A DNA stretch of 64,000 nt from Erodium maritimum (taxonomy: Eukaryota > Streptophyta > Magnoliopsida > Geraniales > Geraniaceae). The notes under the pieces are model-generated. The model saw only the letters and a program-made list of their open reading frames with translations, was not told the DNA's origin and made no database searches. Both the position numbers and the translations under genes were made by a program. The stretch spans positions 23,005,432-23,069,431 of the forward strand of contig OY997592.1 of the NCBI GenBank assembly GCA_963921825.1. The letters are read 5' to 3'. Within the stretch, counting starts at the first letter, position 1; the number at the start of each line of letters is the position of its first letter. This document shows positions 14,486 through 61,860 of the stretch, piece after piece.

Positions 14486-17239
14486 ACACCTTTTAAGTAA
14501 GCAAGCGAAACCCGAATTTAAAGAATTAAACGCCCAAACTCAATCCCGACAATGTCGATCACTCCCAAACTTCCCAATTACTCGACATTGTCGATAATGG
14601 GCTCGGAAAAGCCCGATTCGCCCGACATGGCGAATCTGCCAAGGTTTTGAAAACGCCCTTCCGGGGCTCCGAAAATTCCCGTTTTCGTTTCTACGGTCTT
14701 AGAATAATTCAAGGGTTCCTAGGCATTCGACGGAATCAAATTCCGACTTCCGAGTAATTTAATTCGCGTTTAAAAGTTTCTAAACCCGTCAATTACAACT
14801 TTCACAATTTAATTCCAAATTTCGATCCGGTTGAAGATTAATTACTTGGGGAACGTTCTAAACCACCCGAACACGAAAACCCGATACCCGGGCATGTGGG
14901 CCCCACACGGACACAATGGAAAAATTCCCTTTTTGCCCCAAAATGTTCCTAACGAACCCCAAACCTCAACCCTTCATCTTTAAACCAAATCCAACCAAAA
15001 CCCAACCATATTTGAATCGTTTAAATTCAAGCCCTAAAATTCAAACGTACCAAAACAAAAATCGGTTGAGTGCTCACCGTAGAGAATGTCGATGTGAGCT
15101 CGATTCTTTTATCGTTGAGACGATCCACCGGACGGATCGTCGGGAAAATAGCAAAACCTTAAACTTTCTCTCCTTTTCTCTCCACCTTCTATCCTCCTTC
15201 TATCCCCTTTCTCTCTCTTCAAACTCACCATTTTCCCCTTTTTTTGAAAGTGGCCGAGACCTCACATTTTCTCTTCCTTTTGTTTTGTTTTAAAACAATA
15301 ACAACTAATACTTAAATTGTAAAACTAACCATCAAGTCTTCCTTTGTTTTGTTCAATGTTACCTAACACCACCACATTGGTGACATGTGGCAAATAGGTC
15401 CCACACCTTTTTGGAAAATATCTCCTAGATATTTTCCAATCAGATTCGCGAAATTCGGACGTTTCGGGCCCCGAACGGGCACTTTTTCCAAGAAATTACG
15501 AAACTTCACGGGCTACAAGGAAACGGCTCAACTAAGACCGCTGCGACGATGGCTAAGCTTTTTGGATCCAAAACGGTCCTTGAATGGACCAAAACGTCGC
15601 CCGATTGACTTTTCCAACGAAAAGTCAACTTTTCCCAAATTGATCAGAAAGTTGCCCTGAGTCCCCCGGGACTCACTTTGGTCAATATCGGGATTAACTT
15701 ACGTCCGGTATGACCCTCAGAGTCAGTTTTAGGTTTAATTAAGTGTCTGACCAAAAATTTTAAATTTTCCCGTTTTTCGCAGGTTTGACTAGCGTTGACC
15801 AGGAGTGGTTATTACATTGCTCTTTGGAAGCCATCATGGAAGACTTTAAACTTGAAAGAGGAGTGGAAGTCAGCATAACTGATTTGGGGAACAGAGTGGT
15901 TTTGGTTTATTTTGCTGATGAACAAGCTGAGAATGAGGCTTTGAAAGATGGAAGCACCTGGTTAAGCTACTGGCTTACTTGGCTGGATGATAAAAGCAAT
16001 TTATGCAAGTATGGGGGGGAATTTACATGGGTAGCACTCCATGGGATACCCATTTTGGGTTGGTGCCAAGAAACTTTTGAGGCAGTGGTAGTTGATCTTG
16101 GAAATTTTGTTTGTGCTCATCCCAAATCTCTTAAAGGGAACTCTTTTGAAGTGGCTTTCATACTCCTTCATTCCCAAGAGTATCTGAGAGTCTTTAAAGA
16201 AGATACTCTTGAATTGGAAGGGAATAACTACAATTTCATGGTCAGTTCTGTGGAAGTAAGAGTGATCCCCAATTGTGAAGCTCCCACATTTATTGCCTCA
16301 CCTACCCCTTCTGATAACGTGGCTGCAGAAGAATCTTTGTCCTCTGACTTTAATACTTTAAGTGCTAAGGAGAATGTGGTTGAATCTCCTACTTTAAGAA
16401 GGACTGATTCTGATGTGGTGTTGGGGGGGAGATCAGTCAGTTGTTCCTGACTCCTTATCTGAAGAAAACCAGATCATGCAACTCTCTAATTTCCCAGCAT
16501 TGCAGGCTCAACCAATTCAATGTCCCCCTGTTGTTTCTTCTCCACCCTTGCATCAGATGAATTTTAAACAAGTTTTATTATCTGAAGAAGTTCAAGGTAC
16601 TATTCATACTGAAGTACTGAGTACTGTTCCGATGAGCTCTTCTCAAGGTTTTGGAGAGGATGATGGGACTGAGAAGGAAGCACAAGTACAAAATGTTACA
16701 TGGGAAGATGGTCGTATTAATGGGGATGAGACCTCAACTCTCCCATCCACTGTTTTGGGGTCCCAGTTGCAGACACCAGCTTGCACTAATCTTTTGGAGG
16801 GAAGGATTAATTTGAATTCAAGTGGTAAGAAATTGGTGTTAGTTGATTATAACAATGAAGAAATATTAACTTGTCAAAAAGGAAAAAAGACAACTACAAA
16901 GGTGGACACCACAGTTACTTATAACACAAGATCTAGGTCAAAAATTCAAAGGCCTAAGGAAAATACACTTGGTGAAATTGGCTTGAGGAAGAAGGAACCA
17001 CAAAAATTCAAAAGTGGAGGGGCTGGCACATGGGATTTTTGTAAAGCCTTGGGGCTTGAAGCTTTCATTGCAGATGATCTGGTAGCAGCTCAATTTGTCA
17101 ACTTGGAAAATGAAATTAATCAAACAGTGGACTTGGAAACCAACTCTGAGGATGAATATTGTGATCTGGATGATCTGGATGAGGGTGTAGCAGTGGAGGA
17201 ATCCTGTCCCTCTATCTCTACTTTGAGGCTTGCTTCTCC

Positions 17240-20200: not shown

Positions 20201-20902
20201 AAGAGACTTGAGAGGGTGGGAAAAGGATCAGTCAACTTATTATGTGATGCTCTTAACTCTCATCATCTATCAGAGGGTAATGATTTAGCTGGTTGGGTGT
20301 ATGATCACAAGGGTTTCTCAGTCCACAAAATGTATGAGATCTTAGATGAGAATTGGGATGCTTCTTTGGAATGGCCAGCTTTGCTATGGGCTCCCAATTT
20401 AACACCTAAAGTGGCTGCCTTTGCCTGGTTAGTTTGCATGAAAAGAGTACCTACAAAATGCTTCCTTTTGGCTAGGGGTCTGTACAATGGCAACATTTGG
20501 TGCCCTTTATGTTTTGAAGAACCAGAAGATTTAGATCATCTATTTATAGGTTGCAAAGTTACTACTTTGGTCTGGTATTATTGTCTGGAATGGTGGGGGA
20601 TACAAACTGCTCTATCAGACACATTCCTGAGCTGGTTTACAAGCTGGAATCATTTGGCCCCAGTTAGGATCAAGAGAAATTGGAACATGATATCTTCTCT
20701 AGTCATTTGGAGGATTTGGTTAAGTAGAAATCAGGCATGTTTTCACAACAAGTTTCTCTCCCCACTTGATATTTTCCTCCAAGTTCAAAATGATTCTTAT
20801 CAGTTATTATGGGCTAATTTTAAAGATGGACAAGCTTTCTCTTTTGTCTCATGGATTAATACCCCTTGGTTTTGCTCCCCATTAAAAAGGAGGCTACTGT
20901 AA
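17240..20902 (+). pseudogene. LINE ORF2: endonuclease, reverse transcriptase, zf-RVT
   Basis: It starts MRIISWNMRGA at 17240, overlapping the ORF1 stop. The APE-type endonuclease is recognisable from VINVYAPC, AGDFNAIL, SRLDRFLIS and ISDHKAI. RT motifs follow in order: KAPGPDGYSMKFHQ, LIPKSGSPQTFEDFRPISL, VDFEKAYDHINW, GLRQGCSLSPLL and the catalytic FADD near 19291. A zinc-binding zf-RVT tail lies in 20290-20560 (FSVHKMYEIL, CPLCFEEPEDLDHLFIGC). Lesions: TAA at 17342 (QETK expected, so C to T), a frameshift in a T8 run at about 17523, stops at 19443-19445 and about 19537, and a frameshift near 20185-20220. It would nick the target and copy RNA, but this copy cannot. Confidence 0.93.
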
Positions 20903-31590: not shown

Positions 31591-33248
31591 TTTTTTTTTG
31601 ATAAGCAATGGATTTATTTATCTTTGGAATTTGAGAAAAATTACAAAGATGGAGACGACCCACCCGAAGGAAGGACGTCCTGCAACTGAAACGCTTTTCC
31701 AAGGAAAAGCGAACAAAACACACTCAAAAACAAAACAAAGACTACCAGACAACTTTGGAAGGGATTCTAGAGAGATTCAGTCACCAACTTCCCAGTTTTG
31801 ACAAACTGTCTCCATATCTCATTCCTACGCTGCGCTGCTATTTGTTCTTGTTCGCTCTGAGTAGTAGTTCGTGTTTGAATAGAGTATGAACAACCCTTTT
31901 TCCCTTTCATTATCTGAATCGGTGGCCGAAAAATTGGAGGGCTGAGAAGAGCGTCCTTCCATGGACTATCCCTACAATATTTGACCCATCCTCCAGTTTC
32001 AACCAAACATGAATCTAACACTACAACATTTATGGGCTTCTCCTCCACGTGGACATGCTTAACTGCAAGCATATCACCTGGACTAGGACTGTTCACCACA
32101 AGCCCAACCGCTAAGGATACTTGGGCCTGCGCTTGAGTTAGTCCCACCTCCATATTAACTATATCTTGCGGTCTTTTTATGCCCACAGACTGATACGCGA
32201 CCTGCTGATGTTCCAAGAAAGTAGGCCCATTATCGTGTGATACCACAACATGTACTGGACCATAATTTATCGCAGGCGGAGCCGATTCTACACTGATCGC
32301 AGATCCCAAATTCGCAGGCGTAAATTTCTGAGAGTTTACTTGATCTGTTGTAATTGGTAACGAATCCAAATTATAGATGGCGAATCGCGAATTTGGAGAC
32401 TCAAATCCCGGGTTTTTAGGTGACATCCCTTGACTGCTTTGAGTTCCAAAATTTTGGTTGCAGCCATCGCAATCCAGCACCGGCGTTTCCTTCCCCATCG
32501 ATCCCTGCGACGTCTTGATACGAGCTAACGCCACCAAGAGCTTAAAACCATTATACCTGAACCTATTGTAAGCTTCAATGACCTTTGATGCTGCAATAGG
32601 GGATGTAAAATCAACCAGGCCATAATAAGACCCGCGACGGGTTTTATGAATGGTGATTGACTCGATCTCGCCATACACCCCCTGAACACTTTGGACCCAA
32701 TCACCAGAAGTATTAGACGGCAGATTATGTACAAAAACCAAGGTGGCCGATGTCTCAACTACCTTGCGCATCAACATCGAAGGCGGAGCTTTTCTCTGCT
32801 TCGTCGGTGCACCACAAACCGTCTCCGGAGTTGTCGTATCTTTAGAAGACGTCTGACGTTCCTGAACGTTGTTACCAGCATCTGAAGTTCCACGAAGTAC
32901 ACCGGGTCATCTCTTCTTTGTCACTGGTTTTGTGACGGACTTGTTAGGAACAAACGCACCGGACTTGCGACTGCGATCCTCCCTGACACAAACACCAGTG
33001 CCCTTTGCAGTCTCTTGAACGCAACTACTTCGATTGGCGCCTCCACCAGATTGCATAAGATTGTCGATCCGGTGCGAAACCTCTGATGGAGCACGATCAG
33101 AAACCACCTGAACTTCTTTCCAACATTTCCCCCGGCATGTCTTGTTGGTGACAGAACGAACAACCTTACAATATGCTTCATAGCTTGAGATCAAGGTAGA
33201 GCAAAAGGCCGAGAAAGAGAGAAGCTATGGCTTCATCGTTGGCATCCG
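31591..33248 (-). mobile_element. RRM-only retroposon R3
   Basis: A minus-strand element with 13-bp TSD (ACACCCAAAACAA at 31578-31590 and 33249-33261). The 3' end is TGCTTATC plus poly(A) (T-run 31591-31599). 1.66 kb, holding only the RRM gene. The 5' end is about 12 bases before the ATG, as in R1. It sits inside the copia solo LTR, so it is younger than that LTR. Confidence 0.92.
31767..33236 (-). pseudogene. RRM protein gene of R3
   Basis: ATG at 33236. An in-frame TAG at 33225-33227 is followed by LLSFSAFCSTLISSYEAYCKVV, the family N-terminal motif. A second stop, TGA at 32907-32909 (CGA expected), interrupts the basic linker. The frame then stays open for 336 codons: RRM with RNP2 LVFVHNL and RNP1 SYYGLVDF, a Gln/Ser/Pro-rich spacer, the DSPWKDALLSPP motif, and the C-terminus RNEIWRQFVKTGKLVTESL. 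All in one frame with no frameshift, so the protein was intact until recently. One RRM, in contrast to the two in R1. Confidence 0.82.
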
Positions 33249-36921: not shown

Positions 36922-38155
36922 TCAATGGTCGAACTGGTGGGGGTACTTCTCCCGGATCTCGTCCTCTCGCTCCCAGGTCGAGTCTGCTCCCTGGTGCTTC
37001 CATTGCACTCGTACCGAAGGGATAATAGTCTTCCGTAGGACCTTCTCTCCCGTATCCACAATCCTGACGGGCTGCTCCTCGTAATAGAAATCATCGGCCA
37101 CCTCGATATCTGCCCACTCGATAACATGAGAGGGATCTGCTGTGTACTTCCGCAATTGGGACACATGGAAAACGTTATGCACGTTCCCAAGATGCGGTGG
37201 CAATGCTAACCGATAAGCTACGACTCAAACTCTATCCAAGATCTCAAACGGTCTAATGAATCGTGGTGACAGCTTGCCTCCGCCGCGGTTGAACCGCAGT
37301 AGGCCCTTCTTCGGGCTCACCCTCAGAAATACATGGTCTCCGACCAAGAACTCAAACGGTCTGCGACGTCTGTCTGCATAGCTCTTATGGCGACTCTGTG
37401 CGGTCTTCAACCACTCTCTAATCAATGCGACCTTCTCGGTCGTCTCTCTGACCATATATGGCCCAAGTAAGCTCTGATCCCCTACCTCGGCCCAACACAC
37501 AGGAGACCTACACAGTCTGCCGTACAAAGCCTCAAATGGTGCCATCCCAATGCTCGATTGATAACGGTTGTTGTAGGCAAACTCTGCTAAAGGTAGGTGA
37601 TCCTCCCATGATCCCCGAAAGTCCAGCACACAAGCTCGAAGCATGTCCTCCAAAATTTGTATAGTGCGCTCTGACTGTCCATCTGTCTGTGGGTGATAAG
37701 TTGTACTAAGCAGCACCTCAGTCCCCAACGCCTTTTGTAGGCTCTCCCAAAATCTGGATGTGAAGCGAGGATCTCTATCAGATACAACTGACACCGGTAC
37801 TCCATGAAGGCGAATAATCTCTCTAACGTATAACCGGCTCAACACAGCAACAGTGTCGGTCATCCGTATGGCTAAAGAGTGTGCCGACTTGGTCAGCCGG
37901 TCAACCACAACCCAAACAGCATCGTGCCCTCTCGGCGACCTCGGTAACCCAGAAACGAAGTCCATAGTAACATGCTCCCACTTCCACTCGGAGATCGGTA
38001 AAGGTTGTAACAAGCCGGCGGGACGCTGATGCTCGGCCTTCACCTGCTGACAGGTGAGGCACCTCGAAACAAAATCTGCGACTGCTCTACGCATCCCGTT
38101 CCACCAGAACTGTCGTCGGATGTCTCTGCGCATCCCTGCGGGTTTAAACGCAAAC
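36922..38155 (-). pseudogene. Chromovirus integrase and chromodomain
   Basis: Integrase with the zinc-finger end CLTCQQVKAEH and the D,D,E core: MDFVSGLPRS, VSDRDPRFTS and YHPQTDGQSERTIQ. A GPY/F-like segment follows (SPKKGLLRFNRGGGKLSPRFIRPFEI). A TGA at 37225-37227 is followed in frame by FHVSQLRKY and the chromodomain (VRVQWKHQGADSTWEREDEIREKYPHQF), which directs chromoviruses to heterochromatin. The N-terminal HH half of the zinc finger was lost at the insertion junction. Confidence 0.92.
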
Positions 38156-38159
38156 TTAA

Positions 38160-39897
38160 GCACGGTAAGTGCACCGGCCGTCAAGTAGTAATCGGATTTG
38201 AAGTCCGGAATATCGAGCCCAAAGGAGAAATAGACAATCACTTACTATTTAAAGTTTGTAGCTAAGCTGTTTCGGTAAAAATCGAGTTTTTTGTGTTTTG
38301 AAAATAAACCTATAACGACTAGAAAGAAAATACAGAATTTAACAGAGAGTTTTCTTAGCTTGAATCAAATGATGAAAATTCTAGGATATCGGGTTCATAG
38401 AGTTCATTCCATAAATTCAAATATACTCGATTGTTGTGATGAAGACTTGATTTAGAGGCAACGAGTCATCTCAACTCTAGTCCTAACTTCTTTCGGACGA
38501 TTCGGACCCTAATGGGATCTAACCACCGTGTTCTTTCGAATCACGATGTAGGAAGACCCAAAGCGTTAAGCTCTATGAAAACTTCTAACTTTCGACCAAC
38601 CAAGTCTATAGCTATTGCAATTGTATTCACCCCGCTAGTTCTAGCTAGGATTTAAATCCAACCTATGATCGATTTTTGACTTAATTAGAATCCTCCTCTT
38701 TCGAGCGACGAAACCTAATTCGAAACAATTACCAAGCCTACACGGGAGGTAAAGCATTAAGCACAAATCAATCATAGACACTAATACAAATCATCAATCA
38801 CCATAATCGAAGCATTCAAAATATAGAAATCCCTACTCTAATCCCCCATAGCCCTAGAAATTGGGGGTTTAGGTGTTCATGGTGTGAAAATACAAGAATG
38901 AAAAGAAACAAACAATTAAACTCATAATCAAGATGAAAGTTGAGATACAATCACCGAATTAGTTGTCCAAAGCTTGTTCTTCTTCTCCTCCAATCTCTAA
39001 CCTTGATGCTCTTGAAAAATCCACCAAAAGAAACCCACTTGTGTAGCCAACAATGAAGCTTCTCTCCAAAAATCAACACCCAAATAAATCTCAAATGATG
39101 CTCTACTCACAAAATATAGATTCAATATAATAAACTCTCTTACAAACTCTAGAAAAAAAAGAAAAAAAAATGCTGTACAAAAATGGTGCTTCTCGTGTTC
39201 GTGTTCTTTGTGTAAAAAATGGTGAAGCAGCAGATCCCCCTGGCTGCGGCGCTGCAATGGATAAAATAGGGTTGGATGTGAGTGGTACAGGTGGCAGGCA
39301 GAGAGAGGGGAGCTGAGCTGGGACGCGTGGCGCGAGGAGGGAAAGAGACGGCTGGGGGCGGCTGGCTTGGACAGGTGGCGCGAGCAGGAGGACTGGCGGC
39401 TGGGTGGACGCCACGTGTATGAGGCAGGAGGGCTGGCGGCTGGCGCTGGGACCCGCACGGGACAGATGTCAAGAGGAGGGAAATCGGCGGCGCCACGTGG
39501 CGCAGAGATGGCGGCCACGCGCGCTGATGAGTGGGACCGGGAATGCCATGCGTCAGTCTCTGATGGGCTGCTCTACTTTTGCTCCCTTTCCGCTATTTTG
39601 CTCGCACCGGCTTCGTTTGAGCTCCGATTGATCTCGTTCTTGCGCCAAAAAATTCCTCTTTTCAAGACCTACAAAACAAGACCAATCATGAATATATTTC
39701 AGAGAGAACAAAATTGACCCTGTTGATGGTCCACAAGCACGAAACACCCAAAATGCATCGGAAATCCATCGAAACACCGAACATATCGATAAAACAGGTT
39801 ATTCATGCTAAATCTAAATATATGATAGAAAATCGGGACCAAAATCCTGTATAACTCGATATAATGTGGCTCTTTCACTTGTTAAAATGCACCCGCA
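38160..39897 (-). mobile_element. Non-coding insertion in chromovirus between RNase H and integrase
   Basis: The pol frame is lost just after QPTLVARV (39898) and resumes at about 38155 with an integrase that lacks its first portion, so about 1.7 kb replaces some 50-60 codons. The insert has no known domain. Its two ends carry the similar direct sequences AAGTGCACCGGC (about 38169) and AATGCACCCGC (about 39884). I cannot classify it (a decayed non-autonomous LTR-type derivative is possible) and found no clean TSD. Confidence 0.6.
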
Positions 39898-41784
39898 TCA
39901 CACCCGAGCAACCAACGTGGGCTGAGCCACTAATGCATACAAAGCCATATCATCCGTGACCTCCTCTAGATTAAGTCTGAATGAGCTCAACTCCTTCATC
40001 ATGTCCCACTCTCGGACAACCATGCTGGCAACGTAAGGAGTCGACTTCCTACTCAGGGCATCGGCGACGACATTCGCCTTGCCCGGATGATAGAGCAGCT
40101 CGAAGTCGTACTCCTCAAGTAACTCCATCCATCGCCTTTGGCTCATGTTCAAGTCACGCTGGGAGAAAATATATTTGAGGCTCTTTTAATCCGAGAACAC
40201 CCTAAAACGCTCACCGTACAGATAGTGTCTCTAGCTCTTCAGAGCAAATACCACTGCTGCCAACTCTAGATCATGGGTCGGGTAGTTGCGCTCATGTACC
40301 ATCAACTGTCTCGAGCCATAAGCAACTACCTTCCCGGATTGCATCAGTACGCATCCCAATCCCTCGCCTGAGGCGTCACAGTACACATCATAACCTACTC
40401 CTCGCTCCGGTACAATCAACACTGGAGCGGTAGTCAATCGAGCCTTTAGCTCGGTAAAGGAGTGTTCACACTCATCAATCCATAGAAACTCTAGTCCCTT
40501 GCGGGTCAGCGCTGTCATAGGCGCGGCTAGACGCAAGAATTCCTGAACAAAGCATTGATAATATCCTGCCAATCCCAGAAAGCTGCGGATCTCAAACACA
40601 TTCTTGGGCCTTGCCCACTTTGAAACTGCATCGACCTTCGCTGGGTCAACTAGGATACCATCTCGGGACACAACATGTCCGAGGAATTTCACCTCTGCGA
40701 GCCAGAACTCGCACTTCTCCAAGTTCCCGTACAGCTGGTGAGTACGTAACAAAGTCAATACTATCCTCAAGTGCTCCTCATGTGCCTCTTCACTAGGCGA
40801 GTAAATCAAGATGTCGTCAACAAATACTACGACAAATTGGTCCAGATACGTTCTGAAAATGCCATTCATCAAATCCATGAAGGCTGATGACGCGTTCGGC
40901 AATCCGAATGACATCAGCAGAAACTCAAAGTATCCGTACCGTGTTCGGAATGCTGTCTTCTCCACGTCCTCCTTTCGGACTCTCAACTGGTAGTAGCCTG
41001 ATCTCAGATCAATCTTGGAGAAGCATGTCGCTCCCCTCAGTTGATCGAACATATCATCGATCCTCGGCATCGGATTGCGGTTCTTCACCGTAACCCGATT
41101 CAACTTCCGGTAATCGATGCACATCATCAATGCTCCACCCTTCTTCTTCACGAAGAGGGTGGGTGTTACCCACGGAGAAACACTCGGGCGGGTGAAATCC
41201 TTCTCCTGCAGCTCTTCGAGTTGTCGCATCAACTCGACTAACTCAGCTGGTGCAAATCGATATGGTGTCATCGAGATCGGCGCTGTACCTGGGATCAAGT
41301 CGATCCGAAACTCTATCTCGCGCGCTGGCAGTAAGCCTGATAGCTCTTCCGGGAACTCACACACTACTCTCGGTAGGTCTCTGCTACCCTGCACGATCTC
41401 TGTCTCAACTCCCGTAGTCAAGGCGGACAGAAGGACTCCGCTCTTGCTACCCAAAACACAAGTAATGACTCGGTCGCCCGACCTCATAGTCACCTGACGT
41501 CGATAGCAATCGATCGTCGCTCGATATCTAGCGAGCCAGTCCATAACCAAAATCACATCAAAACCAGTCATATCTAGGACGAGTACGTCACCAATAAAGG
41601 GGAAATCCGCAACCCTAATCACGCAATCCCGACAAACAGTCCTCAACACTACCTCTCCCGTCACAGGGGTATCCAAACAAAGGGGCCGACTCAACGTCTC
41701 CACCCGCAAACCCAAAGAAATAGAAAAAGAAGAAGAGATGAAAGAATGGGAAGCTCCCGTGTCAAACAGAAAAGATGCCCACAA
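39898..41784 (-). pseudogene. Chromovirus pol: protease, RT, RNase H
   Basis: Protease with DTGAS at residues 8-12; RT from about residue 190 ([44 protein letters not shown]) with catalytic FVDD at 321-324; RNase H from about 460 ([41 protein letters not shown]). Stops at 40231-40233 and 40186-40188 are followed by the RNase H end ([29 protein letters not shown]). The 517-codon central frame is otherwise intact. RT here carries FVDD rather than the more usual YVDD. Confidence 0.93.
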
Positions 41785-41991
41785 ATTATACAGTAAACAC
41801 GTACCCTGAGTGGCCTCATGGCCGGCGTACGATCCCTCAACTCTAGCATCAGTAACTGCATAGACTTGGCCCTACCGTGCCGGGGGTCCTCCTCTCGGTG
41901 GTGGTGGAAGTGCCACCTACTGTACAACCCTCGGCTGGTGTCTCTGAACTGCTGCTCCCGCCGCCTAACGCGAAACTCTCTGATGCTGTGC

Positions 41992-43335
41992 CTAAAGTGG
42001 TCGGCCAGGAAGTGCTTGACGAGCCTGAGCCTGCTGAGGTCTCGGCGCAGGTGCTCCTCCAACGCGATCAGGAAAAACATGGGCAAGGTGCCCCTGTCGG
42101 CCACGCTGGTAGCATGACCTCTCATCAACCCGTTGTCTATCTCCAACCCTCTGTGGGTAATCAATCTGTCGCTCTGCAGGTTCGCTGCCCCTCGGACAGT
42201 CTCGGGCTAGGTGGCCCTGCTGCCCACACAGAGGACATAGCTGTGCCACCGGGGCGGGTCCAACTGAAGCTACAGCCCCTGCCCGGCGCATGCCTCCAGA
42301 CTGAAACTAAGGCTGAAAGGATCCAGAAACTCTCTGCTTGCGCTGCTCGCGCCTCTCGGACTGTCGCAGGAAGCCACTCGGCCTCGGCCTTATCTCCCGC
42401 ACCCTGGCCGTCTATCTGAAGTGCCTCTCTATGGCTAAAGCCTGATCCAGGAGTGTGGAGTACACATCGGTCCTGAAGGCGATGACCCTGTCAGCAATGG
42501 ACGGGATGAGACCGTTCTCGAATCGCCTGCAACGACTCTCCTCAGTCTGCACCAGCTCCGGTGCGAAACGGGCCAAGGAAATAAATCTCACTACATACTC
42601 AGAGATGCTCAGTCCTCTCTGACGCAGTTCTAGGAACTGTTGGCGTCTGTCATCTCGAATGGATCGAGGAAAGTATTGCTCCAGGAACAGCCTGCTGAAT
42701 AACTGATAGTCATCCCCAACACTAGTCTGCACTGATTGTCACCAAAAATAGGCCTCTCCCTCGAGCTGAAATGTAGCGAAGGATACTCTCAGATGTCCCT
42801 CAGATACTCCAGAGGTATCGAGGTTGCGGGTAACCCGCTCAAACCAGCCTGCGGCTGCCTCGGGGTCTGCTCCCCCGGAGTAGACCGACGTGCCGAGTCT
42901 ACGAAAATCCATGAGGGACTGGGCCGTGGAGCTGTCAAGCTGGCCTGGCCTCTCATTAGCGACTGCTGCGGCAGTAGGCACGGGCTCTGGTGCCGGTGCT
43001 GCAGTCCCCTGCTACGCGCTCATGGCTGCCAGCACTGCACGAATCACCTCCTCTAGAGGGGTCGTCTGAGTCGGCTCATCGACTGGAGAAGTCCTGGGTG
43101 GTAACTCTGATGGTCCACCCTCAAAACTCTGGTGCTCTGTAAAAGCAGCACCCTGGGCGTCATCTTCCCTTGCCTGCTCAGGGGCAGGTGTCTGACTCGA
43201 GCCCCCAGCTGGGCGGCTCCTGGTACCCCTCGGAACGTAAATACGAGGCATGTCGTCTACCCGCCTGCACGGATAACGCACATGTTCAGTTCCCAGTTTA
43301 GAACAAACGATTCGATCAAACACAAGGACGTTCAC
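41992..43335 (-). pseudogene. Chromovirus gag
   Basis: One frame with stops at 43012-43014, 42739-42741, 42412-42414 and 41992-41994. It reads a Pro/Ser-rich N-terminus, the retrotransposon gag core (WFERVTRNLD, EGEAYFW, FLEQYFPRSIRDDRRQQFLELRQRG, YVVRFISLARFAPELV) and a CCHC zinc knuckle CPLCGQQGHLARDC. A second, degenerate knuckle (CYQRGRQGHLAHVF) has lost the second and last Cys. It would form the virus-like particle. The same frame leads into pol without a shift, as in other plant chromoviruses. Confidence 0.88.
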
Positions 43336-50494: not shown

Positions 50495-51640
50495 AACGAC
50501 CATGACCAAAGTTTTGATGGTAAACTATTCTGCACTAGCAGATTATCTCTCTCTAGAAAACGCTCCCACCTCTCTTTAGCTTCAGCAAACCCTACTTTGC
50601 TACACCACCGCCGGCGCCCGATCTGGTCCCTTTTGGGGCCGGTGAAGACGCCGGTGGTTTCCTCCCTCTTCGTTTTATTCCTCACTTTTCTCCTTTCCCG
50701 TTTTTTCTCATCCTTACGTCTTCAACCGCTCCTCTTTGGACTCCGGTGAGCGTGGCTCTTCAGATCTACATGTGGGAGGTGTTTTCTCCACCGTTCCAGG
50801 TGGAGATCGTCGTAGATCTGTAGCCTTGCCGCAGATCTGAAGCTTTCCTGGTCCTGTGCGTGCTCCAACCCCAGATCCACCTTTCGCTCCCTCTGTTTTC
50901 GGTTTGCTGGGGTTTCGACCCTCGCCGGAGAAAGTGGACTACCGGCGAGGGAGTTGGCCTTTTGGCTTGGGTTCTGATGTTTATTTGAAGTGTTGGAGGG
51001 GTTCTCATAGTCGACTGTGCTTGGATCTGATGGTGTGGTGCGGGTATTGGCTCCGGTTCGTGGCTTTCTTCAAGTAGGTTGTTTGGTGCGCTCCAGATCT
51101 CGGAGACCGTGGCTTTCTTCTTCCCTTTGGTGGCTCTAGCTCGCTCGTGGTCCTTTCGTCTCGTCGCTCTCGTCCTCCCCGAGACTCTCCTCCGATTGCC
51201 CCTCCTTACCCTGTAAGTCCTCGTTTTCCCTTGTATGGGGCCCCGCCGCCGATGGGTTGTCGGCCGTGGGGTGGTTCACCAGTGGTTACTAGTTCTAGGC
51301 AAGGTTAGGGTTGGTCGTTGTCGGAGTGTTGGGGTCCGGTTGTGGTTTTAGATCCTTAGATCTAAGCCATACCTCGTTTTGTTTGGTGCTGGCCAACGGC
51401 GAGCTAGGATTGGTTTTGGGGAGGCCACCAGAATCTTATCTCCTCTATCCTTCAACTCTTTTGTGGCTTGGCCGAACTCGAGACCATTTCCTTTCTCCTG
51501 TTCGTTTTCCGGCGAACGGGTTAAAGTTCGGGTGGTCTCGACTCCCCTTAGGGTTGTTCTGTGGTGTTGGCCATGGACGAGTTCCATTCGGAACTGAGCA
51601 GTGTTCGGAGGTCCTTAGATTTGGGAGTGCAGGGTGGATT

Positions 51641-52023
51641 TGTTGGGTTTTGCCCTAGGCACAATCGGGTTTTAAGCCCAATTGAGTCTTGGACCCAATA
51701 ATTAGATGTATATAAGAGCATATTAGGGTTAAGAGAAATGATAAATCAGATCTATTTTTCTCTAGCCTCCTTTTTCTATTCTCTCCCAAACAACCAAAGA
51801 GAAGAATCGTTCTTCTCGTAGCCGTCTCAATTGTTGAAAGCATCAAATCGTTTCTCGGTGTGGATACACTAGAGGCTTCGTAGTTTCGGAGCTATATCGG
51901 TTTTGTTCTACACATCAAGTAAGTAAACGTTCTAATTTTATCATTGATTCAAATGCAAATAGATCGTTTTTGGATCGAATCTTTTTATTCCGCTGCGTAC
52001 ATATGATGTTTTTCGATCCTTCA
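51641..52023 (+). repeat. 5' LTR of the copia element
   Basis: TGTTGGG to CCTTCA, with TATATAAG at about 51710. It ends directly at the PBS. Confidence 0.96.
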
Positions 52024-52040
52024 ATTGGTATCAGAGCCTT
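52024..52040 (+). promoter_or_regulatory. Copia primer binding site
   Basis: ATTGGTATCAGAGCCTT directly after the 5' LTR, complementary to initiator-Met tRNA. Confidence 0.93.
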
Positions 52041-52425
52041 GGTTTTTTGCATTTAAATCATATGTAAAATTGTTTTATATATATATAATGAATATGTATA
52101 TGTATATACATATCACCTGTACTGATTTGGAGAACTAGGCAATGAAGTTAATTTTTTGTTTTGCCTCTATCCGTGAGCATATGAAATGGATAGTGATATA
52201 CTTTTTGACCATCAATATATATATATATATATGGATATATATGTATATTTACTGAATGTATATGTGCAAATATTTTATGACATGCATATGTGATGAAATA
52301 TGCTTTAATTTTTTGACATATTGATGACTGTTAAATGTGTTCACATACATTTAACATAATGTTGGTTCATAACCTGTTGTCTATACAGCGTATAAATTAT
52401 TGATATGTGTGGGACATGTATATGT

Positions 52426-53127
52426 TTTTTCATATGATGAAAAATTGTATTGAAACTGTTTTAATATAAATAAATCTTGACCTTTTAAAATTATTGAGTT
52501 TTAATTGATAAAATATAAGATATTTTATCAAAGGCTTTTTCATCGAAGTAGATAAATAAAATTGATATTCGTTTACAAGGAACGATCTGACAACCAGGGG
52601 ACTTGTAGTTCGGAATAAAATTATCTTTGTTTACAAGGAACGACCTGACTACCAGGGGACTTGTAGTTCAAAGATAAATGTTATTTTTTCTCTATTGCAT
52701 ATGATGAAAATATACAAATTTATTTTTGTTTACAAGGAACGACCTGACTACCAGGGGACTTGTAGTTCAAAGATAAATGTTTCTCTTTCTTCGTTGCATA
52801 TGATGCAAGTATAATATGTATAAAATTTAAATTTTGTTTACAAGGAACGACCTGACTACCAGGGGACTTGTAGTTCAAAGATAAATATATTTTTGATTGC
52901 ATATGATGCAAATGGAAATGGAAAGTTATCTAATATTGTACTTATAATCTGGACTACCCAGAGGGTATAATATTAATTAACTTTGGGAGGAGATGGTATA
53001 TTCTGTTGCATATGATGCAAGTGAAATTAAAATTATTTAATGTTATACTTATAGTCTGGACTACCCAGAGGGTATGCTGTTAATTAATTTTTGGAGAAAA
53101 TTAATTTATTCTACTGCATGTGATGCG
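52426..53127 (+). repeat. Second hairpin class with ATG loop, interleaved
   Basis: TTGCAT-ATG-ATGCAA occurs at 52794-52808, 52897-52911 and 53006-53020, with variants at 52695-52708 and 53115-53127. TTTTTCAT-ATG-ATGAAAAA at 52426-52444 has a different but fully complementary 8-bp stem. ACAT-ATG-ATGT also lies at the LTR end (51999-52009). From 52.7 to 53.2 kb these alternate with the ACWAC hairpins. Confidence 0.75.
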
Positions 53128-53356
53128 TGAGTGAAGAAAAAATTATTTGATTTTACACTTATAGTCTGGACTACCCAGAGGGTGTAATATTAACTGGTTT
53201 TATGTCACTAGGATGGATAAACTCAAATATACTAATAGGACCGACCTGACAACCAGGTGACTATGTAGTATATAGCATGTTGTGATTTTATGTAATAAAA
53301 TCAGGGAAAACTTTAATTATGTATGAGAAACGACTTGACAACCAAGGGGCTCATTC
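52570..53356 (+). repeat. Array of nine ACWAC-loop hairpins in the copia leader
   Basis: Inner hairpin cores at 52587-52597, 52644-52656, 52743-52755, 52851-52863, 52948-52962, 53055-53069, 53165-53179, 53244-53258 and 53334-53346. Each has a 3- to 5-bp stem and a 5-nt loop ACTAC (six) or ACAAC (three). Around each core is a second stem whose sequence differs between copies yet stays complementary: TACAAG/CTTGTA (four copies), GTAC/GTAT, ATAC/GTAT, ACAC/GTGT, ATAG/CTAT, ATGAG/CTCAT. In six copies (the first four and the last two) the internal loop is exactly 6 nt on the left (GAACGA, GACCGA, AAACGA) and 3 nt on the right. It lies between PBS and gag, in the transcript leader. Confidence 0.88.
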
Positions 53357-53449
53357 ATGTTTTAAAGTTTGTATTATCATTTTGATGAAGTCCATGTCTT
53401 AATGATGTATGATTGTGCTATTTTTTGTTTTCCTTTATAGTTATTTTCG

Positions 53450-54235
53450 AAATGACTATTTTTTCTCTACGTGACATACTGGATGCTAACAAAATGTCTG
53501 GTAGTAATTTTGATATGACTAGTACTGAAACCTAGAATTGTTCTCATGCATGAAAAGCTTATCGATGTGATCGATAATCCCGCCATGGAAGCTCCTATTG
53601 AGGGAATGACTATTGTAGTTGCATTAGATGTATATTTGAAGTACTAGGAACGAAGTACTACTACTCAGTGCATCATTTTGGCTTCCATGAGTCTTGTCTT
53701 TAAAAGGAAACATGAATCTATGAATCCACCACAGATAATAGAACATCTTAAGAAGATGTAGGAGTATCAGAATATGAATGCTAGATATCAGATATCTAAG
53801 TCTCTATTCATGTCTGAATTAAAACTCTATGAACTGGTGCTTATCCATGTTCTAAAGATAATTGATCTTATAGAATAACTTAAGAAGTAAGGATGCACAC
53901 TTATAGCAGGATTTGATCTTGCAGTCTCTTTATGATACTCATGTTATGTTAATTTTAACATGAACATGGTGAATTGTGATATTCATGAATTGCTCAATAT
54001 GTTGATCAATTATGAAAAACAATTCACATCGAGAAAAACGAAAGTATCAAGATCTGTGCAGTTGATTGATGAATCTTTAAAGAGTAAGTGGAGAGGCAAA
54101 TGGATGCCTGAGAGAAAACCGCTTGCACTTGAGAATGATGTTATGAACACATTCAATAAATTAAAGATGAATATTGATCAATGGGATGTTGGACGTTTCT
54201 TTTGTAAGAAGTAAGGACATTGGAAGAGAAATAAT
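53450..54235 (+). pseudogene. Copia gag remnant
   Basis: Short open pieces only. The clearest, 53960-54214, reads IHELLNMLINYEKQF, KSKWRGKWMPERKP and FFCKK, stop, GHWKRN, the start of a nucleocapsid CCHC knuckle. Within about 40 bases the sequence passes to the pre-integrase motif FRLGHINEKRVDKL. The protease region (usual D-S/T-G motif) that should lie between is absent. Confidence 0.75.
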
Positions 54236-54249
54236 CAAACAAATCAAGG

Positions 54250-55260
54250 CTACTTTTAGCTTTTTAGGCTTGGTCATATCAATGAGAAAAGAGTAGACAA
54301 GTTGCATAAGGCAGTGTGTCTTAAGTAGTATGATTATGAATCATACGATACTTTTGAATCTTGTCTCATTGGGAAACTGACAAAATCTCCTTTTACTGGA
54401 ACTGGAGAAAGAGCTAGTGAACTTTTAGGACTCATACATACTGATGTATGTGTGCCAATGAAAGTTCGAGCTAAAGGTGGATATTCTTATTTTGTTACCT
54501 TCGCTGACTATATGTCGAGATATGATTTTATATATCTCATGAGACATAAGTAAAAATCTTTTGAAATGTTCAAAATATTTAGAAGGGAAGTTGAGAAACA
54601 AACCAGTAAGAATATCAAGGCACTAAGATCTGACCGTGGGGGTGAGTATCTTATAGATGATTTTATTGATTATTTTCCATAAGGAAGGATCCTATCATAG
54701 TGGACTTCGTATCTTATTAGATATGGTACGATCGATGATGGGATTTATAAATCTTTCTATCTTCCTGTGGGGATATGTTTTAAAGGCTGTTGCATGTTTG
54801 TTAAATAAGGTTCCCACTAAAGCAGCTGTTGAAACACCATATGAGATATGGAAAGGATGGAAAGCTAGCCTTAAACATCTATAGGTTTAGGGTTGTCCAA
54901 CCAATGTTAAGTGAATGCAATCAGACAAGCTTGAGGCTAAGTCTAACAAATGCAGATTTGTTGGTTATCACAAGGTGACTATGGGATACTATTTCTATCT
55001 TCCTTATGAACACAAAGTATTTGCGGGTAGGAACACGACTTTTCTTTTAGAAAAGAAGTTCCTTGATATCGGAAGAACTGGGAGTAGAAATAGATCTTGA
55101 TGAAATTCAAGATACCAATGAGTCAGCACCGACTCAAGAGCATGAGATGCATATTGAGCGACCTTTTCTTGATGTCTTACAGTTGCCATTGAGGGTTCCA
55201 ACCTCAAATGTTGAGGTAAATGATTTGGTTAATGAACCAATTCAGGAACAATGGTAACAA
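54250..55260 (+). pseudogene. Copia integrase remnant
   Basis: Pieces in more than one frame: LGHINEKRVDKLHKAVC, ASELLGLIHTDVCVPMKVRAKGGYSYFVTFADYMSRYDFIYLM, KALRSDRGGEYL, then (frame 54657) LLNKVPTKAAVETPYEIWKG and KCRFVGYHKVTMGYYFY. Stops include 54328-54330 (TAG) and 54553-54555 (TAA), and there are shifts near 54650 and 55060. Inactive. Confidence 0.85.
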
Positions 55261-55379
55261 CAAAATCAAGAAGTACAAGAGCCTCCTAGAAGATCAATTA
55301 GAGAACGTCGTGCACAAAATAGGATTAATCTATTAATGTGCGATAATGAGGACAATCATATTGATGATGACCTTATTAT

Positions 55380-56880
55380 TAAAGACGATCCTAAGTGTTT
55401 CCAAGAGGCAATGACTATGTCCAGACCATGAGAAATGGCTAGCTGCCATGAAATCCGAAATAGAGTTAGTGGAAATCAATAAAGTATGGACTTTAGTTGA
55501 TGACTCTAAGGACTTAAAACCTATTGGGTGTAAATAGAGTTTTAAGAGATAGATTAGAGCGGAGGGTAAGGTTGAAACCTTTAAAGCCCGTCTGGTTGCT
55601 AAGGGGTATAATCAAAAGAAAGGTATTGATTCTGAAGAAACGTTCTCCCCTGTAGCAATACTCAAATCTATTCGGATTTTGCTTGCTATTGTTACATACT
55701 GTGATTATGAGATTTGACAAATGGATGTGAAAATGGCTTTCCTTAATGGTGAGCTCAAGGAAGATGTCTATATGACTCAACCTGAAGGTTTCACATTGTC
55801 ACTTGCTCATATTAAAGTATGTAAGCTACAACGATCCATTTATGGATTAAAGAAAGCTTCTCATAATTGGAACATTCGTTTTCACACGACAATCGAAAGG
55901 TTCGATTTTGTGCGTTGTGAAGAGGAGTCATGTGTGTACAAGAAGGTTAGTGGGAGTGTTGTCATTTTCCTAGTGTTATATGTAGATGACATATTGTTAA
56001 TAGGAAATGATGTGTCAGTAATGCAAGAAACAAAGGTTTGGCTATCTGAAAACTTCTCCATGAAAGATATGGGAGAAGCAACTTATATTATTGGAATAAA
56101 GATCTATAGAGATAGATAAAGGAAGTTGCTTGGAATCTCTCAATCTATGTACATTGATACTATCTTAAGGAAGTATCACATGGATAATTCCAAAATGGGG
56201 TACTTACCTATTGGAACTGGAGTTTCTCTTTCTAGGGGGATATTCCTAAGACTCTAGAGGAAAGAGAACACATGAGTAGAATCCCATATGTTAACGCAGT
56301 GGGAGCTATCATATATACCATGAGATGTACGAGACCGGATGTTTCCTATACGCTAGGAGTAACAAGTAGGTACCAGGGGAATTCGGGTGAGGAACATTGG
56401 AAAGTTCTCATACATATTCTTAAGTTCTTGAGAAGAACTAAAGACCAATTCCTCATTTATGGAGATAATGAGCTTAAATTGTTAGGCCATATTGATATAA
56501 GTTTTGCATCAGATTAGGACATAGCAAATCTACCTCTGGTCATGTTTTACCTTAAATGGTGGGGCAATTTGTTGGAAGAGTTCCAAACAAGCTACCGTAG
56601 CTAATTCAGTAACCAAAGCAGAATACATAGTTGCATGTGATGCTGTTGAGGAAAGTGTATGGATAAAGAAGTTCTCAATTGAGCTTGGTGTGCTTCCTTC
56701 AGTAAAGGAAAGTGTTCCTTTATTATGTGACAATAAGGGGGTTATTGCACAAGCCAAGGAGCCAAGAGCACACCAGATATCCAAACACATTTCTCGGAAG
56801 TTTCTTCTTAGTAAAGAAATAGTCGAACGTGAGACGTTCAAATTTTGAATTTGGAAGGAAAGGAAAACGATGCAGGTCCT
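55380..56880 (+). pseudogene. Copia reverse transcriptase and RNase H remnant
   Basis: The RT core frame 55721-56119 is intact for 132 codons: MDVKMAFLNGELKEDVYMTQPEGF, LQRSIYGLKKASHNWN and YVDDILLIGND (catalytic YVDD at about 55978-55989). Upstream RT is broken by stops. RNase H pieces: PYVNAVGAIIYTMRCTRPDVSYTLGVTSRYQ (56272-56517) and VTKAEYIVACDAVEESVWIKKF, CDNKGVIAQAKEPRAHQISKHI (about 56605-56800). Order and spacing fit Ty1/copia pol. Confidence 0.9.
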
Positions 56881-56934
56881 TTCACTAAGGTGTTTGGTTC
56901 AAAGGAGTTTGACAAGCACAAGTGGAATATATGA

Positions 56935-58065
56935 TTGAAATTCATGAATGTTTGGCTCTAGTCAAATGTTAATCTTCATGAAACATTTTTGAGCACATTT
57001 TATATCATGTTTTTTTCTTATTAGTGGTGACTAATATAATGGCTTTTATTGTTATCATATATGAATGTTTAATGACATTGGATATGATAAGTCCTTGATT
57101 AAACTGATATACTTGTCATCATAATAGGGATTATGATAATGAGAGTCAAGTATTATAGAGTTTGATCTAAATGTGTTCTTGGTCATAGGATCATCCTACT
57201 GGGACTAAGGTGAACCGGATAGACCAATATATGTATAACAGTACTCATTGGATGAGTATTAATGGATCTCATTCATTAAATTATAATATAGATGATGCAT
57301 ATAGTGGATATGATCATTGAACTGACCAAAAGTGGGATTTCCAAATGGTTGAGTTTACCTATACTGTCAATGTGGAAATTTTCTTAAGGAGCAAATGTAT
57401 ATTGTTTTGTCCTTTGACCTGAGATCACCATAGTGATTAATAGAATGCTTGTTATACTTTGATATCGGACACCTAGTGTGTAAAAATGCTAGTTGAAAGG
57501 TCATTGGGTATGATTGAGTACCTATATAATCAATGGTGAGTCAAGAGGGAATCCATCAACTCAAGGTAATGAGTTTGAACTCTATGTTGTTATGAATCTT
57601 ATGGTTGAAAAGATCCTTGGCCAAGGCAGAAGACTGATTTAAGAAATGAGTTTCTTAAAGTCATTCAACAACCAGTAACGATCAACATGAAACATAGTGG
57701 TTATCTATTACGGTTTGACAGTCAAACCATACCCTAGGATAATCCGGAGTTGGAAAGATGGAAGGAAAACAATTCATCATCCTTAAACCAGGTTCGTCTT
57801 TATTGGATATTGATATTCACGTTATCCGGCCGTCGAGGAGTGTTGTTAGACGCCAACCTCGATTAGTAGTTAATGAGATTAATTACTACCGGTTTAGCGT
57901 TGAACCTATGTGGTCACACACTTACGAGTGATGTTTGATGTTTAAGATCATTTAATTTATTATGAGATAATTTATTGAAATGATCGAGATGGCATATTTG
58001 TTATATCTTCTGCTAACACAGAAATATAATAAATATTGGAATTCTTGACAGATTGGATCTAGGTC
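56935..58065 (+). other. Copia 3' non-coding region
   Basis: Sequence between the end of RNase H and the PPT with no long open frame. Such 3' non-coding tracts of about 1 kb occur in several plant copia lineages. Nothing else seen. Confidence 0.6.
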
Positions 58066-58076
58066 AAGTGGGAGAT
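58066..58076 (+). promoter_or_regulatory. Copia polypurine tract
   Basis: AAGTGGGAGAT, the standard Ty1/copia PPT, immediately before the 3' LTR. Confidence 0.93.
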
Positions 58077-58459
58077 TGTTGGGTTTTGCCCTAGGCCCAA
58101 TCGGGTTTTAAGCCCAATTGAGTCTTGGACCCAATAATTAGATGTATATAAGAGCATATTAGGGTTAAGAGAAATGATAAATCAGATCTATTTTTCTCTA
58201 GCCTCCTTTTTCTATTCTCTCCCAAACAACCAAAGAGAAGAATCGTTCTTCTCGTAGCCGTCTCAATTGTTGAAAGCATCAAATCGTTTCTCGGTGTGGA
58301 TACACTAGAGGCTTCGTAGTTTCGGAGCTATATCGGTTTTGTTCTACACATCAAGTAAGTAAACGTTCTAATTTTATCATTGATTCAAATGCAAATAGAT
58401 CGTTTTTGGATCGAATCCTTTTATTCCGCTGCGTACATATGATGTTTTTCGATCCTTCA
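58077..58459 (+). repeat. 3' LTR of the copia element
   Basis: Same length as the 5' LTR with two substitutions, preceded by AAGTGGGAGAT. Confidence 0.96.
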
Positions 58460-60008
58460 GGATTTCCTCGGTGGTGTTGGTGTTCATGGTGGTGGTACTT
58501 GAGCCCGGAGGTGCTGGTCCGCTCTGGTTTTGGTTGGTTTCGGTTCCTGTCTTCTGGCTATGGTCACTTTAGCTTCTCTTGGTAGGTAAGCCTTGATTGT
58601 TCTTTGAGGTAGTTGTTTCTGGTTGTACTTCAACTTGGTTTTTTTGGGTACTAGACCCGACATTTGTTAGTTTCAAAGTTCAGTTCTCCTATTGTTGTAA
58701 TGTGGGTGTTAGACCTTTGGTTGTACCTTGAAAAGGGGTTTGGAGTTCTAGTTCTAGTTCTGGTTTGGGTGTCTTGAAGACATGCCTGTAGTTTGTTTCT
58801 GGTGGGTACATCCCATGGCCTTCTTTTCAGTTCGAAAATTTGGTCCTCAATAAAACATTAGCTGATAAAAAAAAAACAACCATGACCCGCAAACCCTATA
58901 TGCTTATCTAGTACAACCTCGACTGCTTGTGTCTATGTTGATGAGTAACCACTTATCTTTATATGTTTTAATAGGGAACTAATGATACTTCTTTATATGT
59001 AGTAGTAGGAAGTGACTCACGTTGTTGCTGAACCTGAGCATAATACAACATTTACATAATCTAAGAGTGTTGTAACAACCCGTAGGAGAGCATCAAATTT
59101 CATCCGTATTCGCTACGAATCATCCAGCATCATTGTGACCGTTGCGTGTCTCTACTTGGTCCAACGAAGCATTCATCTAAGCCAAGCATGTCAAAGAACC
59201 GTGGCTACCCAAGATCATGCAAAAGTGACATAACCAATGCATACCATACGTGCATGAAATCTTGGGACCATTACTTTACTTATGTGACACACGTCAACAA
59301 GCTCACATATGGAGATGAGACATCCAGCTTCTAGAATCTTCATAAATGAAGTGGATTGGCCTCATGCACGGAGGAACTAAACGGTCATTACTAGAAGCAT
59401 CTTGAGTGGTCATGAATCAATGCTTCGAGAATCATCTTGATTGATCATGGATCAACCATCACCACCAACTTTAGAAGTGTATAAATACCCGTAGGTAGTT
59501 CATAGGTAGGACATATATAGACATACACATATAGATTGATCCCTTAGGAAACTAATCATCTCTTTGATAAATCCATCCATTGTAAAACTAGTTGGAATAG
59601 TTATACTCGTAGCATTTGTAATATACTCTTTCCTTTTTAATGCCAAACAAGTGTTAAGCTTAACCGTGCCTTGTTTTTGATATATTTGTGGTGTTGTTAC
59701 ATTGATTATTCTCTCGGTTTGATAATGTTTACTTCCGCAGCTCGACAATCTGAAAGGCTAAGCTTGGATCAAGATAGTCCAAGTTTCGGGCGATCTGAGG
59801 GATTCAGACCGAGTTCTCTCGGGCCATATATAGTTGGTATCAGAGCGGGTCGACCAGCGTGACCTTCAAACAAGGAGAACTCAACAAGGCAACGACGATA
59901 TACCAAAGACCCAAGGTGACTCAAGAATGAGTCGGGCGAAAGAGCGTGGGAGCGTCCAAGGTGCTGATCCACAAGAAAATATGGATGCCATACTGGAGGC
60001 AAAATCAG

Positions 60009-60190
60009 GACGAGGGAAAGTCTGAGGCAATTGCCCAAAGGTGTAGGTGGACACCGTTTTGGCGATAGAAGAACGAGGAAACGTCTGAGGCACCATCCCA
60101 AAGGTCTAGGTGGACACCAGCGTGGCGGAAGAAAGACGAGGGAATGTCCGAGTCACCGACCTGAAGGAGTATATGGACTCCATCATGGGA
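60009..60190 (+). repeat. About 63-bp tandem repeat, three copies
   Basis: Units beginning (GA)ACGAGGGAA(A/T)GTC at 60009, 60071 and 60135, each containing CCAAAGGT(G/C)TAGGTGGACACC or a decayed form. Confidence 0.8.
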
Positions 60191-61149: not shown

Positions 61150-61590
61150 TTAGTGCCAAACTCAAGGACAAGGAAGTGCCGATTGAGCATTCCAAGATGG
61201 GAAAGGTAGAACATGGAAGGATGGATCGTTCTATTCACAAGGAGGTGTGGCAGCCGAACACACAAGAAACAGAGACGTCCTCCCGAGAGTATTGCGTGGA
61301 GGAAGGGACATACGAGATGGATGTGTGCCTGAAAAAAGAAGTCGTCCAAGTCGAGGTGACAACGGTGGACGAGGACATTCCCAGTTGGGATGCATGCTCG
61401 GGATAGAGTAAAATACGAACGCATCCGGGGCAGCGGAGGGCATTGTGAGGTGACCGGGTTTGCCTACAGAGAATCGATCACAAACGGATGGTATGCGCAC
61501 GGGGCGTAAGGACACGAGCTAGTCAAGAGCATGGAGCCGCCATCACGTAAGTGACGTGAGGCACAAAAGTGTGTGCTGAGGATACCTTAA

Positions 61591-61860
61591 AGGGTGGAGG
61601 ACTCCTTACTACAGTTGTGGGAGCTTCCGGATCCTTCAAGGGTGAAGGACGTGCAACCGAGAGTGTTGCTAGAATCTCCAAAGGTGGAGGACTCTATGTC
61701 ATAGTCGGGGGATCTACTGGATCCTTTGAGGATGAGGAACGCAGAACCAGGAGTGTTTCCAAAGTCTCTAAAGGTGGAGGACTCTTTATTGCAGCCGGGT
61801 GAGCTGTTGGATCCTTTAAGAGTGAAGGATGATGGTTGTGTGCAACCGGTGGAGTTACTG
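61591..61860 (+). repeat. About 90-bp (30-codon) tandem repeat, three copies
   Basis: Units starting AAGGTGGAGGACTC at 61591, 61681 and 61772. Two repeats stay in one open frame, giving SKGGGL...GSFEDEERRTRSVSKV-type peptide repeats (61569-61802). Coding status uncertain. Confidence 0.75.

Follow-up and report, generated by a model that had tools for sequence, protein, structure and literature searches.

A tandem array of two-stem ACWAC hairpins in the leader of a copia retrotransposon family of Erodium maritimum: a candidate mark of genomic RNA

The leader of a copia-type retrotransposon family in Erodium maritimum carries a tandem array of hairpins that share one two-stem design and one loop motif (ACWAC). 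Comparison of the units with each other and across sister copies in the host genome leaves the hairpin structure, and the constraint acting on it, well supported. Our best explanation of its function is that the array is a multivalent cis mark of the unspliced genomic RNA, probably for packaging or dimerisation by Gag; we put the probability of this reading at roughly 0.45, a little short of even.

Results

The retrotransposon and its leader

The element lies on the forward strand of the window (the whole stretch of 64,000 nucleotides that was analysed), and has paired TG...CA LTRs with a target-site duplication, a primer-binding site (PBS) and a reverse transcriptase (RT) of the RVT_2 type, which together identify it as Ty1/copia:

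51641-58459, + strand: copia-type LTR retrotransposon, young by its LTR pair
51636..51640: target-site duplication GGATT (second copy at 58460-58464)
51641..52023, + strand: 5' LTR, 383 bp, TG...CA
52026..52037, + strand: PBS, TGGTATCAGAGC, adjoining the 5' LTR and presumably of the initiator Met-tRNA type
53452..54211, + strand: presumed gag remains, with ATG at 53452 and a stop at codon 28
55718..56116, + strand: RT piece, open, copia-type RVT_2 (PF07727), E 3.5e-34
58077..58459, + strand: 3' LTR, 383 bp

The two LTRs are 99.5% identical (2 mismatches in 383), and the polyprotein frame is split into many stop-to-stop pieces. Near-identical LTRs around a broken polyprotein make it most probable that the frame was already dead when the window copy inserted. 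The stretch at 53452..54211 is taken to be gag from its position and general likeness; its piece at 53936-54211 has no Pfam match, nor do the pieces at 54329-54881, upstream of the RT, which by eye are integrase-like. The leader (52024-53451) is 1428 nt long and contains 55 ATGs before the gag ATG, compared with an average of 48 in dinucleotide shuffles. All data on the family come from one host genome (763 Mb, 40 contigs).

Other features of the window are Ty3/gypsy-like remains on the minus strand (37225-42164; RVP_2, RVT_1, RNase H, integrase and a Tf2-1-like SH3 domain in two ORFs), LINE-like ORFs on the plus strand (15785-20902, where the ORF at 17496-19445 matches endonuclease and RVT_1), two minus-strand ORFs with RNA recognition motifs (8086-9660 and 31767-32777), and tandem repeats of 63 nt (59998-60186) and 90 nt (61590-61859), both multiples of three. 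A second copia family in the host genome has more than a hundred RT matches that are nearly identical; the majority lie in 1350-codon open frames, and some recur about 7264 bases apart.

Nine hairpins of one design

The hairpins of the window belong to four classes, A (4 units), B (3), C (1) and D (1):

52573..52608, + strand: hairpin U1, class A, loop ACAAC at 52590-52594
52631..52666, + strand: hairpin U2, class A, loop ACTAC at 52648-52652
52730..52765, + strand: hairpin U3, class A, loop at 52747-52751
52838..52873, + strand: hairpin U4, class A, loop at 52855-52859
52934..52972, + strand: hairpin U5, class B, loop at 52953-52957
53041..53079, + strand: hairpin U6, class B, loop at 53060-53064
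53151..53189, + strand: hairpin U7, class B, loop at 53170-53174
53228..53271, + strand: hairpin U8, class C, loop ACAAC at 53249-53253
53321..53356, + strand: hairpin U9, class D, loop ACAAC at 53338-53342

A preliminary description of this DNA had claimed nine two-stem ACWAC hairpins, and this is borne out: all nine ACWAC pentamers in the leader are the loops of stems of at least 4 bp, whereas 1000 dinucleotide shuffles average 0.08 such loops and never exceed 2. Elsewhere in the window, such stems are found at 2 of the 126 plus-strand ACWAC pentamers and at 2 of the 158 minus-strand ones. The inner and outer stems are as described there, as is the 6x3 internal loop in six units (GAACGA/GGA in four, and GACCGA/TGA and AAACGA/GGG). 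When folded singly, all nine units form the two-stem hairpin; in the minimum free-energy (MFE) structure computed for the array in its entirety, 9/9 units have the inner stem and 8/9 the outer one, the first unit being rearranged. Per-unit free-energy z-scores range from -1.0 to -4.9, and that of the first unit (-1.0) is unremarkable. Some units have an extra basal stem that, like the second hairpin, the predicted splice sites and the sister copies treated below, was absent from the preliminary description. The four A units are near-identical and the three B units similar, and both sets look like tandem duplicates, so that the nine hairpins represent about four independent stem types rather than nine.

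Comparison with the Rfam covariance models identified no described family; its 14 weak matches are all far below the gathering score. A K-turn, which consists of tandem sheared G-A pairs beside a 3-nt bulge, was considered for the internal loop and rejected; by eye, the class A loop (GAACGA/GGA) could form G-A pairs, but class B and the usual class D (GGG) cannot.

A second hairpin, H2, alternates with the ACWAC hairpins:

52794..52808, + strand: hairpin H2, TTGCAT-ATG-ATGCAA, between main units
52897-52911 and 53006-53020, + strand: further H2 copies
52695-52709 and 53114-53128, + strand: H2 variants

The C-D spacer of the window (53284-53302) contains, by eye, an 8-bp hairpin, GATTTTAT-GTA-ATAAAATC.

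Sister copies in the host genome

With at most 2 mismatches allowed, the A core matches the host genome at 1175 places, compared with 573 for its reversed control, and the D core, with at most 3, matches at 1285, compared with 559; genome-wide, several hundred core matches thus exceed the control, although several A cores can share one element. The sister set consists of 89 loci, made up of one stretch from each of 49 clusters distinguished among the listed A-core places, and of 40 of the 100 listed D-core places (C3-C6, window excluded). Two or more units are found in 89/89 sister leaders, a count that gives no rate of retention because every locus entered the set through an exact match to the A or D core. 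Together they contain 687 units, or 696 with the window (A 295, B 229, C 87, D 85). The arrays mostly have the form A(2-5)B(2-3)CD, and usually comprise 6 to 10 units, with a maximum of 12. The four commonest orders (AAAABBBCD, 32; AABBCD, 27; AAAAABBBCD, 9; AAABBBCD, 7) cover 75 of the 90 loci, window included, and other orders account for the remaining 15. Arrays evidently grow and shrink through unit duplication. Three loci of group II (defined below) have extra B-C units by local duplication (L056, AAABBBCBCBCD; L074, AAAABBBCBCBD; L089, AAAABBBCBCD).

In the MFE structures of 51-mers, the inner stem is formed in 228/295 A units, 218/229 B units, 82/87 C units and 84/85 D units. H2 is present in 110/110 A-A, 83/83 A-B and 130/136 B-B sister spacers of at least 20 nt, and in 0/84 B-C spacers. 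An H2-like variant, its stem made up entirely of A-U pairs, occurs in 24/80 C-D spacers, at the site of the 8-bp hairpin of the window.

In 49 sister loci (best match only), the greater part of the array is usually matched without a break, while the best local match to the leader upstream of it is mostly limited to the last 75-160 of 537 nt. The leader's first ~400 nt (52024-52460) have no best match in most of the 49 loci, although the array and the start of gag match well. In viral contigs, scans with an exact 21-base pattern and scans based on the RT found no relative, and 16-mer matches in four viral contigs were taken as chance. A search of genome contigs yielded a single weak locus, which lies in a deltaproteobacterial MAG.

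Covariation between and within unit classes

Covariation is present between the unit classes, and in two classes it is also seen, less strongly, within the class. Compared with class A, class B has 6 double compensatory changes in ten pairs (P 0.0000-0.0007 for the three B units), class D has 3 (P 0.0013) and class C has 2 (P 0.047). The count of paired positions alone gives P values of 0.0001-0.0024 for B, and is weak for D (0.039) and C (0.092). The change from ATAC/GTAT to ACAC/GTGT, previously described as a double compensatory substitution, is real. In the nine-unit alignment, 15 cells are changed on both sides (5.3 in shuffles; 1-8 in slid controls), and with the pairs in the A register 79.8% of cells are paired (65.7% in shuffles; 26-51% in slid controls). 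A measure of further standard pair types in the same nine rows is not above shuffles, 369 of 500 of which reach the observed value. RNAalifold, which had been suggested as a check, predicts the inner stem from alignment A2 but not the outer one, at least partly because the outer arm of class B is shifted by one base.

Within classes, the covariation is seen in two pairs, numbered from the loop. The (-14,+10) pair of the last B unit (B_last) is either C-G or T-A except in 2 of 84 loci, one of which has a wobble, so that 83/84 are paired (P 0.012 when the two sides are taken to evolve independently on the tree). The (-15,+12) pair of class D is A-U, G-C or G-U, and is paired in 80/85 loci (tree-null P 0.064); the G-U intermediate occurs in 17/24 loci of group III. 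In H2, one pair in the A-A spacers is C-G in 77 and T-A in 33, with 0/110 unpaired, and the outermost pair in the B-B spacers forms in 41% only. Non-Watson-Crick states of core pairs that are common to at least five loci comprise 11 G-U, 2 A-C and 2 others, although some of the 11 are one pair counted again in duplicate units and are not independent; the rare states comprise 41 G-U, 39 A-C and 70 others (Fisher 0.034 for the contrast of inherited with rare). Among inherited alternative states, those that pair number 19/30 for all proposed pairs (10-16 of 27-33 in slid controls) and 9/14 for core pairs (3-6 of 11-17), and four are both doubly changed and paired (1-3 in slid controls). Some inherited outer variants of class B are unpaired, namely A-A in the first B unit (22/78) and T-C in the middle one (16/49), and extension of the stem beyond ~17 nt from the loop has no family-wide support.

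Constraint on the hairpins

The ACWAC loop is kept in 649/696 units, some of which served to choose the loci. In the two units that were not used in locus selection (B_last and C), mean column diversity of the loop and inner stem over 79 loci is 0.034, compared with 0.088 for spacers and 0.138 for the start of gag. Permutation of columns over the 79 loci gives P 0.025 for hairpin cores versus spacers, and 0/10000 for hairpin cores versus gag. Within single groups the difference between hairpins and spacers is not significant (II, 0.074; III, 0.22; I, 0.37), and that between hairpins and gag is significant in groups II and III but not in I (0.20).

A quite different account is that the units are non-functional tandem repeats, whose paired changes arise by templated correction of one arm during reverse transcription and not by selection. 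The changing size of the arrays through unit duplication would suit it, as would the switches between C-G and T-A in B_last and H2 with few or no intermediates, and the unpaired outer-stem variants that are nevertheless inherited. Arm templating cannot explain a conserved loop, however, and the G-U intermediate in the class D pair, the bias of inherited wobbles to G-U, and the lower divergence of cores than of spacers over all 79 loci also weigh against this account, which we consider improbable. The tandem inverted repeats might instead be a small-RNA precursor or act at the DNA level, as a cruciform or a site of protein binding. In that case one would not look for conservation of the loop and internal loop, rather than of one arm, nor for 11 inherited G-U wobbles (duplicate-unit counts included) versus 2 A-C, and this is the least probable of the explanations that we weighed.

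Selection on RNA structure, as proposed in the preliminary description, is thus supported by the retention in sister copies, by covariation and by lower divergence, with the unpaired outer variants as exceptions. That description had also named pairing-breaking stem changes in other family members as contrary evidence; the core-selected sister leaders keep their hairpins, but some of the outer pairs are broken.

A predicted leader intron

The sequence around the array predicts an intron, which extends from a conserved donor in the U5 region of the 5' LTR to an acceptor just before the gag ATG:

51919..53440, + strand: predicted leader intron, CAA|GTAAGT ... TTTATAG|TT, holding the PBS and all nine hairpins

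The donor at 51919 is the best-scoring of 51641-53500, on a simple plant-like weight table with approximate weights, and the acceptor richest in pyrimidines in the same interval has its end at 53440, which leaves 11 nt to the gag ATG. In 41/46 loci the donor 9-mer is unchanged. Over 44 loci it has a mean identity of 0.985, a value reached by 4 of 115 nine-base windows, compared with 0.833 for the remainder of the LTR tail; for the PBS, mean identity is 0.998 across 44 sister loci, which were themselves picked by a PBS motif. The acceptor AG is present in 44/85 loci. With a transcription start assumed ~32 nt past the TATA box, no ATG lies between start and donor in the window, and among 21 loci, including the window, 11 have none, 8 have one and 2 have two; in group III none is found in 6/6 measurable loci. 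Splicing, if it occurs, would strip the PBS, the array and every leader AUG from the mRNA.

These features bear on a third possibility raised in the preliminary description, a translation element; it could serve the gag mRNA as an IRES or as the landing structures of a ribosome shunt. Ordinary scanning would fail in the unspliced leader, with its 55 AUGs before that of gag, which speaks for the idea. The predicted splicing would remove the AUG problem, however, and the array persists in groups in which every member examined has a dead gag (below). With the array inside the predicted intron, behind so many upstream AUGs, and retained without a working gag, we regard a role in translation as very unlikely; of the roles first proposed, packaging or dimerisation is favoured, as the gag-dead groups keep the array.

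Three groups, two with dead gag

A midpoint-rooted tree of 85 loci, based on 420 nt after the D hairpin, was split by eye into group I (19 loci, including the window), group III (24) and group II (42, which are all the others and perhaps not one clade). Gag was read for up to 110 codons, and over this length it is open in 17/24 loci of group III, 0/19 of group I and 0/42 of group II, and 17/19 group I loci have the stop at codon 28 in common. Groups I and II carry the array despite their broken gag. The shared gag stops of group I and of many group II copies are found at many chromosomal sites, which implies that these copies multiplied while lacking a functional gag themselves, probably by means of proteins supplied in trans. 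An element kept by lineages with dead gag would be one that proteins or host factors read in cis during replication, in packaging, dimerisation, export or priming.

The acceptor AG is found in 20/24 loci of group III, 19/19 of group I and 5/42 of group II. Open gag occurs in 15/44 loci with an AG acceptor and in 0/31 with GG (Fisher 0.0002), but the loci are related, so that the association amounts to a few events. Midpoint-rooted parsimony would make GG the older acceptor state and AG a gain, and does not support loss of the acceptor. With the acceptor mostly missing from group II, splicing would not be universal in the family, and it may be derived.

The main rival to packaging is nuclear export or control of splicing, in which a host factor bound to the array would let the intron-containing genomic RNA escape splicing and reach the cytoplasm. 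The array does lie within the predicted intron, and binding of a host factor would likewise last in groups with dead gag. The MPMV CTE is a structured export element of unspliced retroelement RNA. It is an animal element, as are the IAP RTE and the MusD MTE, and all three are likened to the plant array by description only. The parts of a 2025 review that concern such elements describe the RTE and MTE of mouse IAP and MusD as structured cis elements of unspliced RNA that act in export, and also the CaMV leader as recruiting export factors (PMC12786077). Group II keeps the array with an acceptor AG in so few loci, and would have less need to escape splicing, which argues against export; we judge it unlikely, and prefer packaging or dimerisation.

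Discussion

A possible mechanism

The array is best viewed as a cis-acting RNA element of this copia family, in which repeated two-stem ACWAC hairpins alternate with H2. The array and the PBS lie inside the predicted intron, and would then be carried by the unspliced genomic RNA only, while translation would start at the gag AUG on the spliced RNA. An array of six to ten like hairpins that share one loop suggests a single protein that binds it multivalently. This protein, most likely Gag provided in trans, could bind the repeated loops cooperatively, and genomic RNA could in this way be selected and packaged, and perhaps dimerised.

A more specific form of this proposal is that the genomic RNA is marked by an intron-borne, multivalent array of equal Gag-binding hairpins that the spliced mRNA lacks, and that this array is shared by gag-less parasitic groups, one of which mostly has no splice acceptor. 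We consider this form doubtful, because parsimony does not support loss of the acceptor and because plant LTR retrotransposons are described as generally without introns, though with exceptions, in the relevant part of the 2025 review (PMC12786077). If it is true, the array of the gag-less groups would isolate the code that directs encapsidation in a plant LTR retrotransposon.

Comparison with known systems

Retroviral packaging signals (psi) are required in cis for encapsidation and are composed of a few unlike stem-loops, which in HIV-1 and MLV are located around the splice donor and gag, with GACG loops in MLV; in some retroviruses psi is confined to the genomic RNA, which may be compared with the placement of the array in an intron. 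The copia array, with its candidate packaging role, differs in having 6-10 copies of one design. The retroviral signal is near the 5' end of the genomic RNA and is bound by Gag, and the 5' RNA of Ty1, which belongs to the copia superfamily, is preferred by Gag in competition assays (PMC8396678). The 5' pseudoknot and proposed packaging region of Ty1 involve long-range pairing in a pseudoknot rather than a series of like hairpins.

A precedent is BARE2, the gag-dead partner of BARE1 in a pair of barley copia elements; according to the sections consulted, it lacks the splicing signals, but its signals for packaging and dimerisation are conserved and its packaging takes place in trans (PMC3735527). 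Here, too, a copia family has a gag-dead group that carries a candidate packaging element, and the gag-dead copies of group I have multiplied with a shared defect. As to splice signals, the acceptor AG is missing from 37/42 loci of group II and present in 19/19 of group I, and the intron itself differs: that of BARE is 104 nt within gag, whereas the one predicted here is in the leader. The same sections of that paper mention no tandem hairpin array (PMC3735527).

Structured cis elements in retroelement leaders are already known, and it is the tandem design that is new. The preliminary description knew of no plant copia leader of this kind, and we likewise found no published counterpart: four hairpin sequence strings had no match in 5.39 million papers, and no tandem-hairpin copia leader was found in the literature within our scope, which takes in few subscription papers. 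The parts of the 2025 review that cover RNA pools and granules name no plant packaging RNA motif (PMC12786077).

Selection of their own RNA by plant LTR retrotransposons is little known. With its compact repeated hairpin, natural compensatory variants and gag-dead copies, the present family is a ready test object for it, and a covariance model of the hairpin could be used to seek the same design in other plants.
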